From Sphingomonadales bacterium (lineage in GTDB: Bacteria; Pseudomonadota; Alphaproteobacteria; Sphingomonadales; Sphingomonadaceae), in contig JAIXUQ010000091.1 in NCBI GenBank assembly GCA_027483465.1, forward strand, positions 1 to 42,331: a DNA stretch of 42,331 bases. The letters are read 5' to 3'. Each line of letters begins with the position of its first letter. Positions within the stretch are counted from its first letter, which is position 1. A model generated the notes under the pieces. That model did not search any database and had not been told where the DNA came from. It worked only from the letters and a program-made list of their open reading frames with translations. The translations under genes and the position numbers were made by a program. Shown one piece after another: positions 1,180 to 5,490 of this stretch.

Positions 1180-1222
1180 TCGCGGCGCCACCACCACCGC
1201 GCTGATCATCGGGGAATGGGCT

Positions 1223-1250
1223 TTGCGCCGGCCGGCCCAGCGGCTATGCG
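1223..1250 (+). promoter_or_regulatory. putative promoter of valS
   Basis: TTGCGC (1223-1228) and TATGCG (1245-1250) are separated by 16 bp. The -10 box ends 6 nt before the valS ATG at 1257, which would place the transcription start at or next to the A of the start codon. No Shine-Dalgarno is seen between the box and the ATG. Inferred from sequence only. Confidence 0.3.
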
Positions 1251-1256
1251 GCGCGG

Positions 1257-3977
1257 ATGATCGACAAGATTTTTGATCCGGCCAGTTTCGAGCAGCGCTG
1301 GTATGCGCATTGGGAAACGAGCGGCGCCTTTCGCCCGGCGCGCCCGCAGGCGCAGCCCTTCACCATCGTCATCCCGCCGCCCAACGTCACCGGCTCCCTG
1401 CACATCGGCCACGCGCTCGACAACACGTTGCAGGATGTGCTGATCCGCTGGCACCGGCTGAACGGGCGCGATGCGCGCTGGGTGGTGGGCACCGATCATG
1501 CCGGCATCGCCACACAGATGGTGGTGGAACGCCGCCTGGCCGAAGCGCAAGCGCCCAGCCGCACCGCCATGGGCCGCGAAGCGTTCGAAGCCAAAGTGTG
1601 GGAATGGAAGGCCGAAAGCGGCGGCACCATCACCCGCCAGTTGCGCCGGCTGGGTGCCAGCTGTGACTGGCAAAACGAACGCTTCACCATGGATGAGGGC
1701 TTCAACCGCGCCGTCATCAAGGTGTTCGTCGAGCTGTACAACCAGAAGCTGCTCTATCGCGACAAACGGCTGGTGAACTGGGACCCGAAGCTGAAGACCG
1801 CCATTTCCGATCTGGAAGTGGAAACCCGCGAGGTGGCCGGCAGTTTCACCCACATCCGCTATCCGCTGGCCGATGGTTCGGGCCATGTGATCGTGGCCAC
1901 CACGCGCCCCGAAACCATGCTGGGCGATACCTGCGTGGCGGTGCATCCGGAGGATGCGCGCTACACCGCCATGGTGGGCAAGATGATCGCTCACCCGATC
2001 ACCGGGCGGCAGATCCCGATCATCGCCGATGAATGGGCCGATCCCGAATTGGGCAGCGGCGCGGTGAAGATCACGCCGGCGCATGATTTCAACGATTGGG
2101 CCGTGTTTGAACGGCACCGGCACATCGGCTGGATCAACATCCTGGATGCCGAGGCGCGCATCTGCGCCGCAGATGGCGTGCCGGCGGATTATGTCGGCCT
2201 CAGCCGCGAGGATGCGCGCAAGAAGGTTGTGGCCGATCTCGACTCCCTCGGCCTCATCGAGCGCATCGAGCAGAAGACCATCCAGATGCCCTTTGGTGAC
2301 CGTTCGGGCGTGGTGATCGAGCCGTGGCTGACCGATCAATGGTATGTGAACGCCGGCGAGTTGGCAAAGCAGGCGCTGGCTGCCGTGCAGGATGGCCGCA
2401 CCCAGTTCGTGCCAAAGACCTGGGAGAAGACCTATTTCAACTGGATGGAGAATATCCAGCCCTGGTGCGTGAGCCGGCAATTGTGGTGGGGGCACCGGAT
2501 TCCGGCCTGGTATGCCGCCGATGGCCGCGTGTTCGTGGCGGAGACCGAGGCCGAGGCGCAGGCCGAGGCCGGCGATGTGCCGCTGACCCGCGACGAGGAC
2601 GTGCTCGACACCTGGTTCTCGTCCGCCCTCTGGCCGTTCGGCACGCTGGGCTGGCCGGATGCCACGCCCGATCTGGCCCGCCATTATCCCGGCGACGTGC
2701 TGGTCACGGGCTTTGACATCATCTTCTTCTGGGTGGCCCGCATGATGATGCAGGGGCTGCATTTCATGGACGAGGTGCCGTTCCGCACTGTCTACTGCCA
2801 TGGCCTGGTGCGCGACGCCAAGGGCCAGAAGATGAGCAAATCCAAGGGGAACACCGTCGATCCCCTGGGCCTCATCGACAAATATGGCGCCGACGCGCTG
2901 CGCTTCACATTGACCGCGATGGAAACGCAGGGGCGTGACATCAAGCTGAACGAGAGCCGCATCGAAGGCTATCGCAACTTTGCCACCAAGCTGTGGAACG
3001 CCGCGCGCTTCTGCCAGGCCAATGGCATCGAGGGCAGCACATCGCCGCTGCCGCCCGCCGCCGGCCAGGCGGTGAACCGCTGGATCATCGGCGAGGTGAA
3101 GGCGACCGCGCGCGCGCTGGAGCAGGCGATCGCCGATTATCGCTTTGATGCCTATGCCGATGCCATCTACCGGCTGGTGTGGAACCGGTTCTGCGACTGG
3201 TATCTGGAACTGATCAAGCCGCTGCTTGGCGCCAAGGAAAATGATGGGGGCGCCGATGCCGCCGTGGCCGCCGAAACCCGCGCCGTGGCCGGCTGGGCGC
3301 TGGATCAGTTGCTGGTGATGCTGCACCCGGTGATGCCCTTCCTCACCGAGGAATTGTGGCACCAACTGGCCATCCGTGATGATCTGATCCTGGCGCAATG
3401 GGTGAACAGCGCGGCGCTGCCCGAAGATGCCGGGGCGAGTGCGGACATTGATTGGCTGATCGGCCTGATTTCCGAAGTGCGCTCGGCCAGAACCGAGCTC
3501 AATGTGCCAACATCAGCAAAACTGACCATGATATCCATTCAGGAGACTGATGAATTCTTCAATCGGTTTCATACATTCAAAGGCCAGATTTCTCGGCTTG
3601 CCGGTATAAGTCATTTCGGCTTCTCAAACAGGGGATGGGGAACGGCGATAAATGCATCAGGGGTAGAATTTGATGCAGGTGATATGGTTGCTGCTCGTGG
3701 CGGTCAATTTAATGGAGTAAGTATTCAGATCGTATACTCAGATACGACCTTTGCACTCCCACTTGACGGTGTGATCGACATTGCCGCCGAGAAGGCGCGG
3801 CTGGAAAAGGCGCTGGCGGCTGCCGCCAAGGAGCGGGACGCGCTGGCCGGGCGGCTGAACAACCCCGGCTTCACCGAAAAGGCCAAGCCCGAGGCGGTGG
3901 ACAAGGCGCGCGAGGACCATGCCGCCCGCAGCGCCGAAGCCGAACGACTGGCGGCGGCGCTGGCGCGGTTGGGCTAG
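1257..3977 (+). CDS. valS: valine--tRNA ligase
   Basis: Cytoplasmic class I aminoacyl-tRNA synthetase charging tRNA-Val; 906 residues, usual for the family. HIGH is at residues 49-52 and KMSKS at 525-529. The editing (CP1) domain lies between them, the anticodon-binding domain follows (about 620-745), and the C-terminus is the typical coiled coil (about 840-906, rich in A, E, K, R) ending in [11 protein letters not shown]. Oddity: residues about 745-838 (3488-3770) are encoded by DNA of sharply lower G+C with codons rare elsewhere here (ATA, GTA, GGA, TCA), while the frame stays open and flanking blocks ([23 protein letters not shown]) remain normal. This looks like a replaced or recombined segment. 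A short GGGCG/CGCCC hairpin follows the stop codon. Confidence 0.97.
3488..3770 (+). other. low-G+C patch inside valS
   Basis: From about 3488 to 3770 the composition changes abruptly: positions 3541-3780 contain 110 G+C of 240 by hand count (46%), against roughly 65% or more in flanking valS. Codons used here include ATA (three), GTA (three), GGA (three), TCA (four), AGG and AAA. The reading frame is uninterrupted. The encoded residues (about 745-838) lie between the anticodon-binding domain and the C-terminal coiled coil, and this section appears some 20 residues longer than I expect for the family. Confidence 0.85.
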
Positions 3978-3992
3978 GGCGCGCACGCCCCC

Positions 3993-4020
3993 TTGGCCGG
4001 GCGGCGGAACCTGCTAGCCT
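3993..4020 (+). promoter_or_regulatory. putative promoter of serine hydrolase gene
   Basis: TTGGCC (3993-3998) and TAGCCT (4015-4020) with a 16-bp spacer, in the 70-bp gap after valS. The start codon is 27 nt downstream, leaving room for the GGGGGA ribosome-binding site at about 4036. It matches the TTGSMM / TAG pattern seen elsewhere in the window. Confidence 0.35.
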
Positions 4021-4047
4021 TCCCCGGTCAATTCGGGGGACCCTGCC

Positions 4048-5490
4048 ATGCTTCACCGCGCCATTGCCCTTGCCCTGCTGCTGGCCAGCCCGGCCGTGGC
4101 ACAGGCCCCGCCGCCGGCGGCCGCGCTGGCCGAAAATCCCGATGTGCAGGCCGCCACCCGCCTGTTCAGCGCCTGGATGAACGGGCAGATCGCCTATCGC
4201 GGCTTGCCCGGCGTGGCGGTGGGCGTGGTGCACGATCAACAATTGGTATGGGCGCAAGGCTTTGGCTATGCCGATCTGGCCAGCAAACGGCCGATGACGG
4301 CGGAGACCCGCTTTCGCATCGCGTCCAATTCCAAGCTGTTTGCCGCCATCGCCATCCTGCAACTGCGCGAAGCCGGCAAGCTGCGGCTGGATGATCCGGT
4401 CGTGAAGCATCTGCCCTGGTTCCGCATGCAGCCGGCCGGGCCAGATGATGGCCCGATCACCATCGAGCAACTTCTGTCCCATTCATCGGGGGTGCAGCGC
4501 GAGGCCGGTGACCATTGGGCCAGCTATGATTTTCCCACCGAAGCCCAGTTGAAGGCCCTGATGGCCGGGCGCCAGGCTGCCTTCCCGCCGCAGACGCGGT
4601 GGAAATATTCCAACCTGGCCTTTGGCATCGCCGGGCTGATCGTGGAGCAGGTAACGGGGCAGCGCTGGGCCGAATATGTCGCCGCCAACATCCTGAAACC
4701 GCTCAACCTGAACGCCACCAGCATCGACAAGCCCGATCCGGGCCTTGCCACCCCCTATGGCGTGCGCACCCCCGATGGCACCCGCCGCGTGCTGTCGTTC
4801 GTGGATGCGCGCGGCATGGCGGCGGCCACCGGCATGACCTCTACGGTCAATGATCTGGCGCGCTTCATTTCGGCCCAGTTCCGCCGCGCGCCCAAGGCCG
4901 GGGGCGACAATGTGCTTTCGGCCGGCAGCTGGCGCGAGGCGCTCAGGGTGCGCAGCGTGGACGAGAATTGGGAAAGCGGTTCGGGCCTGGGCTTTGACCA
5001 TGTCCGCGTGAAAGGCCGGACGTTTGTGGGCCATGGCGGCGGCTATCCCGGCAACACCACCATGACCCGCGTGCAGCTGGACGACAAGGTGGGCGTGATC
5101 GTGCTGACCAACACCAATGATTCGGGCCCCGGCGACATCGCCAACCAGCTGCTGGCCACGGTGGGCGAGGCCGTGGCCCGCGCCGCCCGGCCCAAGCCGG
5201 TGATGGCCTGGGATCCGGCCTGGGCGCGCTTTGCCGGGCGCTACCGGGGCGGCGATGATGGCGTCATGCAGGTGGTGCTGCTCAACCAGCAACTGGTGCT
5301 GCTGCCCGACAATGGCAGCGCCGCCGAAACCCGCACCGTGCTGGAGCCGCTGGGCGATGGCCGTTTCCGCCTGATGGCGCCGGGCGGCGGCAACAGCATC
5401 GGCGAAGTGGTGCGGTTCGAGGAACGGGACGGGATGGTCACCCGGATGTTCACCGGCGACACATGGAGCCGGCGCATCACGGATTGGTGA
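4048..5490 (+). CDS. secreted serine hydrolase, class C beta-lactamase family
   Basis: A 480-residue exported hydrolase of the penicillin-binding / class C beta-lactamase superfamily (COG1680). The N-terminus is a classical signal peptide with likely cleavage after AVAQA near residue 20. Active-site motifs are present in order: SxxK as S93-N-S-K96, the Tyr motif Y187-S-N189, and an HGG triad at 329-331 in place of KTG. The last hundred residues form a beta-rich C-terminal domain of the kind found in esterase/peptidase members. Relatives act as esterases, D-aminopeptidases or amidases, so the substrate cannot be read from sequence. It appears to be transcribed alone, with its own promoter-like boxes and a GGGGGA ribosome-binding site. 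Confidence 0.85.
   Translation: MLHRAIALALLLASPAVAQAPPPAAALAENPDVQAATRLFSAWMNGQIAYRGLPGVAVGVVHDQQLVWAQGFGYADLASKRPMTAETRFRIASNSKLFAAIAILQLREAGKLRLDDPVVKHLPWFRMQPAGPDDGPITIEQLLSHSSGVQREAGDHWASYDFPTEAQLKALMAGRQAAFPPQTRWKYSNLAFGIAGLIVEQVTGQRWAEYVAANILKPLNLNATSIDKPDPGLATPYGVRTPDGTRRVLSFVDARGMAAATGMTSTVNDLARFISAQFRRAPKAGGDNVLSAGSWREALRVRSVDENWESGSGLGFDHVRVKGRTFVGHGGGYPGNTTMTRVQLDDKVGVIVLTNTNDSGPGDIANQLLATVGEAVARAARPKPVMAWDPAWARFAGRYRGGDDGVMQVVLLNQQLVLLPDNGSAAETRTVLEPLGDGRFRLMAPGGGNSIGEVVRFEERDGMVTRMFTGDTWSRRITDW

Follow-up and report, generated by a model that had tools for sequence, protein, structure and literature searches.

Mosaic or cassette genes under diversifying selection, such as those with restriction specificity domains, are dispensable defence or surface genes in which a variable block lies between conserved anchors and is recombined across taxa. 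For valine--tRNA ligase (ValRS, encoded by valS), the Vs protein of phage T4 is a phage factor which binds the Escherichia coli enzyme, thereby providing a precedent for a phage product that binds ValRS.

Within ValRS itself, sporadic change about residues 750 or 820, patchy across the species of one phylum, is described in a study on cyanobacteria (PMC4893482). CAAD, a single membrane-anchoring domain that comprises two transmembrane helices, is inserted in the cyanobacterial enzyme near positions 750 and 820, on a face described as lying opposite to the tRNA.

In this study, we analyzed valS in a stretch of 42,331 nucleotides (the window), which is placed by its sequence in the Sandarakinorhabdus/Polymorphobacter group; the nearest named loci are those of Sandarakinorhabdus limnophila, S. 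rubra, and S. oryzae. The altered site is the ValRS subdomain between the anticodon-binding bundle and the coiled-coil arm, for which rare, mostly longer, AT-rich, and highly diverged versions were found. This is also the region in which cyanobacterial ValRS carries CAAD (PMC4893482); in contrast to the one added domain there, however, a short subdomain is replaced here by many versions. Unlike the dispensable mosaic genes, valS encodes an essential tRNA synthetase. The patch is probably a divergent alternative allele of this small alpha/beta subdomain that was recombined in, as one of many such swaps in the Sphingomonadaceae. Among the open-licence papers listed, titles and abstract starts yielded nothing on a hypervariable ValRS segment or on swapped synthetase segments of sphingomonads.

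The AT-rich segment of valS in the window

The ValRS of the window matched NF004349 with 1212 bits (cut-off 704) and TIGR00422 with 1007 bits (cut-off 612), both nearly end to end, and such a full-length match above the curated cut-off identifies the gene as encoding a bacterial valine--tRNA ligase. Pfam assigned PF00133, PF08264, and PF10458. In the genome of the window (G000), one match each was obtained for the patch, searched as DNA, and for the C-terminal part, searched as protein. NF004349 gave eight matches there, and the one examined was that to valS. A 730-aa open frame antisense to valS (1206-3398, minus strand) is likely a by-product of the high G+C content. The features of the gene are listed in Table 1.

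Table 1. Features of valS and its flanking domains; positions refer to the window.
Feature	Position	Strand	Description and basis
valS, valine--tRNA ligase	1257-3977	+	906 aa, single open frame; ORF list
Anticodon-binding domain PF08264, upstream flank	3075-3527	+	residues 607-757; Pfam
Swapped AT-rich segment, codons 745-838	3489-3770	+	synonymous-codon segmentation, GC profile, codon shuffle, alignment with relatives
Extra strands and short helix inside the swapped subdomain (limits approximate)	3624-3719	+	AlphaFold2, window vs resident L277
Coiled-coil tRNA-binding arm PF10458, resident type, downstream flank	3777-3974	+	Pfam; normal G+C, identity to relatives

An initial annotation, made from the sequence, had reported a sharp patch of low G+C at 3488-3770, encoding residues of about 745-838, with the frame preserved. 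The GC profile, shuffles, and segmentation bear this out. For residues 753-836, G+C was 0.44 and GC3 0.37, compared with 0.64 and 0.79 upstream and a G+C of 0.73 downstream. The minimum over 240 bases in the entire 42-kb window was 0.4375 (3499-3738), and all 240-base stretches below 0.55 overlapped the valS patch, which is hence the sole dip of this kind in the window. None of 5000 codon shuffles of valS reached the observed 80-codon minimum. Segmentation by synonymous choice, using a codon table trained on replaced segments from other species, returned codons 745-838, i.e. bases 3489-3770, with a score of 111.7 against a shuffle maximum of 29.5 (2000 shuffles); the limits given in the annotation are thereby reproduced nearly to the base. 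The rare codons ATA, GTA, GGA, and TCA, to which the annotation had also drawn attention, account for 13 of the 85 patch codons and for 0 of the 821 codons elsewhere in valS. The reading frame is intact through both joins.

At the edges of the patch, the conserved ValRS residues RTELNVP and LPLDG are encoded by AT-rich codons, while their codons in relatives are GC-rich; also, the final residues of PF08264 carry foreign codons. Since the foreign codons thus extend to conserved edge residues, a homologous valS segment was probably replaced, and not merely a new piece added. Direct or inverted repeats of at least 12 bases, a threshold above very short target repeats, were not found in 3300-4000, and no promoter- or terminator-like site was found in 3300-4100. 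A search of the whole window with Rfam returned nothing but the tRNA at 8-78, and the patch alone had no match in Pfam.

Within the genus, 21 of 24 genomes (window included) gave a valS match. Eighteen of these genes have resident segments of 56-58 aa with 64-76% G+C. The other three (window, L003, and L004; genomes G000, G009, and G002) have replaced segments of 79-90 aa with 44-50% G+C, which differ from each other; forms intermediate between the three altered and the 18 ordinary genes were not found among the 21. With 84 aa, the segment of the window is indeed longer than usual, as had been noted, but the excess over the 18 resident alleles is 26-28 residues instead of about 20. The annotation had named, as evidence against a foreign patch, close relatives that encode these residues by high-GC codons; none was found in the genus, where the 20 relatives read carry different residues.

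Structures were modeled with AlphaFold2 for residues 682-906 of the window (pLDDT 86.5, pTM 0.72) and for the same part of the resident relative L277 (pLDDT 79.9, pTM 0.58). Both models have in common a strand, a helix, and three strands ahead of the coiled coil. In the window model, another two short strands and one helix follow the second of these strands and precede the final two. The core fold is thus predicted to be kept, with a hairpin and helix of about 28 residues added. In Foldseek, the best match was the Thermus ValRS 1gax (E 7e-7), with a TM-score of only 0.36, and no other domain stood out. A CAAD-containing ValRS was considered and rejected, as the patch has no Pfam match and its model is a small alpha/beta fold.

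Abrupt edges were observed in four cases (window, L299, L317, and L282) in which the valS body of the nearest relative is 0.86-0.90 identical. In blocks of ten residues, DNA identity is mostly 0.7-1.0, falls to 0.2-0.6 around residues 741-760, and recovers around residues 821-850. The 3′ edge varies by case; the gene of Sphingobium terrigena (L317) is resident again earlier, from about residue 827. Less distinct edges were seen for L328, L322, L336, L308, and L268, whose nearest relative is at 0.76-0.86. Two genomes of genus g41, G142 and G583, are 85% identical over the valS body; their coils share 94% identity and their patches 25%. As in a recombining cassette, the segment varies while its flanks are conserved, and the breakpoints lie in these flanks.

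Replaced versions in the Sphingomonadaceae

The C-terminal part of the window protein, used as a query, matched 385 of 397 genomes of the family, and in at least 26 of them (window included), from scattered genera, it aligned near full length in one piece; among these 26, the segments L034, L037, L041, and L043 are ordinary in length and composition. A profile of the replaced versions matched 384 of the 397 genomes, with a span of at least 333 bp in at least 22 of the 384, belonging to at least 17 genera, where resident lengths lead to an expectation of about 297-306 bp; sequences were examined for 18 of these 22 genomes. With one genome per species, frequencies in the family are lower bounds. 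A further 40 family genomes taken from farther down the match list included L088 and L105, which are AT-rich at ordinary length.

Eight of 80 named loci carry a replaced segment. Their G+C differences are all -0.08 or lower, compared with -0.01 or higher in the remaining 72. These eight are from Sphingosinicella soli (L282), strain AAP81b (L268), Sphingobium fluviale (L328), Glacieibacterium frigidum (L322), UBA2369 (L336), Sphingobium terrigena (L317), a Polymorphobacter MAG (L308), and Sphingobium sp. YR768 (L299). The 30 loci of genus g41 were the best scorers of a longer list, a choice that works against replaced alleles.

Length and composition do not always go together. The segments L203 (G246), L206 (G101), L207 (G144), and L210 (G311) combine ordinary length with lowered G+C and an unusual sequence, so that counts based on length only miss some replacements. 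Conversely, L039 (G298) and L240 (G581) have a longer segment without low G+C, that of L039 being host-like at 0.65. These two are perhaps old replacements adapted to the host, or the result of lengthening in place; L039, whose sequence groups it with the set C1 described below, may be an old arrival that has since adapted.

Outside the family, the segment measured 57-66 aa in 68 distinct valS genes of other alphaproteobacterial families, with a difference in G+C to the flanks of -0.055 to 0.107, and a replaced segment was found in none of the 68. In a search of the class, 307 of 385 genomes matched, five of them from the Sphingomonadaceae, and no span above 315 bp occurred among the matches listed outside the family. 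In other alphaproteobacterial families, two valS matches (G430:C1:230407-233412 and G462:C1:8828-11683) are some 250-400 bases longer than most; as the segment under study is of ordinary length in both (L148 and L161), the extra length stems from insertions elsewhere in valS.

For the comparison of versions, 274 sequences were collected as a non-random sample, 262 were kept for good anchors (the 12 dropped were all from other families), and 235 remained without duplicates. BLAST within this set defined two groups of similar versions, C1 with eight members in eight genera (L003, L033, L039, L040, L048, L045, L050, and L049) and C2 with three members in three genera (L088, L210, and L203). Every version of C1 and C2 had its best match in its own group. 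Overall, the best match of 33 replaced versions was another replaced version for 15, a resident allele for 16, and nothing at E 0.01 for two; sharing is therefore shown for part of the versions only.

In the tree of the patch, support was 100/98 for L040/L048, 100/99 for L045/L050, 92/84 for C2, and 89/56 for all eight members of C1. The tree of the valS body rejects a single clade for C1 (p-AU 8e-68) as well as for C2 (p-AU 2e-4), and also rejects L040 and L048 as sisters (p 0.0013). The patch tree, in turn, rejects the placement of L003 with the residents of its genus (p 0.002), of L088 with its Sphingosinicella residents (p 0.0017), and of all seven genus rows together (p 0.0016). Since C1 and C2 were defined by similarity of the patch, only the tests on the body tree are independent of this definition. 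On these sequence comparisons, exchange between lineages is apparent for some versions, namely those of the sets C1 and C2. For the window, placement with the residents of its genus was not rejected by the patch tree (p-AU 0.556), which leaves composition and abrupt edges as the grounds on which import of its version is argued.

Constraint was assessed in three pairs of replaced versions (L040/L048, L045/L050, and L003/L033). In the patch, pN was 0.23, 0.25, and 0.37 with pS of 0.84, 0.80, and 0.81; in the body, pN was 0.17, 0.12, and 0.21 with pS of 0.45, 0.57, and 0.51. Amino acid change is thus held back in the three pairs compared, and the replaced versions may be older than the bodies that carry them, although pS is near saturation. 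In most of the resident pairs tried, the segment is somewhat more diverged than the body (pN 0.11 vs 0.08 and 0.18 vs 0.11 in two of them), and it may evolve faster in general. The G+C of the segment correlated with that of the host flanks in residents of the family (r 0.55, n = 146) and showed next to no correlation in the long versions (r 0.04, n = 23, defined by length).

For an overview of other genes, twenty 20-kb stretches of genome G002 (400 kb, one stretch chosen to hold valS) were surveyed, and 12 dips below 52% G+C over 210 bases were found. In this sample from one genome, valS was the only dip within a recognised housekeeping gene. Seven frames at other dips were searched with Pfam, of which three had a family (trypsin with PEP-CTERM; a TonB-type receptor; PLDc_N/SHOCT) and four had none; the frame L169 9594-12905 stood outside this step, and one dip was without a long frame.

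Origin of the replaced versions

We consider recurrent recombinational swapping in the family very likely, and the version in the window is, in our judgement with good confidence, imported and not evolved in place. The initial annotation had proposed recombination with a low-GC donor or domestication of a segment inserted in frame. The former fits best, but a donor was not found in the collections searched (see below); the latter applies only to the extra part, a hairpin plus a helix with a length of some 28 residues, inside a subdomain that was probably replaced. The picture also differs from that of a single accident, as the change recurs across the family.

Close to the main idea of the annotation, one isolated recombination event by chance, with a low-GC donor of an ordinary kind and without selection on the change, would account for the low G+C, the foreign codons, and the sharp edges of the patch. 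We regard it as unlikely, however, because the same site holds long segments in at least 17 genera and, in the 400 kb of G002, no recognised housekeeping gene other than valS showed a dip of this kind; moreover, the 68 distinct valS genes of other alphaproteobacterial families offer no similar segment, and a plain donor is therefore not in sight. Rather unlikely, too, is fast evolution in place, in which weak constraint in some lineages would be combined with lengthening and with AT drift by mutation bias. The position of the window in the patch tree, the resident alleles as best match of 16 of 33 replaced versions, and the somewhat greater divergence of the segment between residents speak for such a process. 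Against it stand the edges, where the shift occurs within few codons and AT-rich synonyms are found on conserved residues, the crossing of genera by C1 and C2 against the body tree, a pN much lower than pS in each of the three pairs of replaced versions compared, and a genus in which three of 21 genes are altered, 18 are ordinary, and none is intermediate.

In-frame insertion and domestication of a mobile element, a palindromic element, or a domain such as CAAD would explain the greater length, and CAAD is known at about the same positions of cyanobacterial ValRS (PMC4893482). It is nevertheless very unlikely in view of the lack of repeats of 12 or more bases in 3300-4000 and of a Pfam match for the patch alone, the resident core strands and helix kept in the models, and the foreign codons that flank the extra part on both sides. 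Compensation for an altered tRNA-Val would agree with the contact of ValRS with the tRNA elbow, as given in PMC4810234, and with the position of the arm next to the swapped subdomain. Yet a pattern search of the three replaced genomes (G000, G002, and G009) for tRNA-Val cores of 37 bases gave nine, eight of which have an exact counterpart in a relative with a resident allele; the UAC core of G009 differed by one base from that of G023. The eight exact counterparts make compensation less likely, and we give it very little credence. An assembly error or contamination might be suspected in a draft genome of 118 contigs that is 96% complete, but the frame is open through both joins and similar long segments occur in one-contig genomes (e.g. 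G185, G369, and G298), which makes an artefact highly improbable.

We searched genome, viral, plasmid, and phage collections for a donor or a phage or plasmid reservoir, and none was found. Pattern scans of genome_contigs and of viral contigs for the version of the window gave no close relative; these scans rely on exact short peptides, which distant relatives may escape. Likewise, the coil of the window and two other versions gave no hit in viral contigs. Against plasmids, the version of the window had one match (31%) to a Sphingomonas valS, and against phages one weak match (E 0.03) to an unannotated record. The whole ValRS matched 58 plasmid records, the best (among the best 30 of 58) being valS of Sphingomonas parapaucimobilis (62.7%) on an 853-kb record, and 23 phage records, none named for a sphingomonad. 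In S. parapaucimobilis YK209 (L343; NZ_CP155750.1, 425327-437542), valS and a nearby DUF2497 gene lie on this record, which is designated "plasmid"; the location of valS points to a second replicon that resembles a chromosome, or to a chromosome that has been split. With PHROGs, four versions gave no convincing match (best E 0.32 for the version of the window and 0.0068 for another), and with PADLOC the four versions had no match. The AT-richness of the versions suggests that they reside for some time on replicons richer in AT, of which none was found in these collections.

For recombinational swapping, the following course appears most likely. A divergent valS segment would enter by recombination within the conserved sequence on both sides. 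With the frame and the core fold kept, the enzyme would stay active while an exposed surface changes. Swaps would be retained because the altered ValRS surface is bound by a putative antagonist (a phage protein, a toxin, or a product of a mobile element), and under such binding rare versions would be favoured. Local selection is supported by the repeated change of a single site, by the fact that the recognised housekeeping genes sampled had no similar patch, and by the restriction to one family within the sample. The most likely selector would be a factor that binds ValRS there, although the PHROGs and PADLOC searches point to none; that such an antagonist is the cause of the swaps is a tentative proposal. 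More speculative is the broader picture of a horizontally circulating recognition module with many alleles in an essential ValRS, kept diverse through an arms race with a putative phage protein, toxin, or mobile-element factor.

Significance for the family

For housekeeping enzymes, the expectation is slow and largely vertical evolution, and a repeatedly diverged block in an essential synthetase points to strong local selection. The segment names a surface of ValRS and thereby offers a route to finding its binder. Natural allele pairs with resident relatives are available in Sphingobium terrigena, Sphingobium sp. YR768, and Sphingosinicella soli. For phylogeny, caution is advisable, as a single marker gene can hold a foreign block. 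If the proposal is true, these bacteria would have a polymorphic target site within the core translation machinery.
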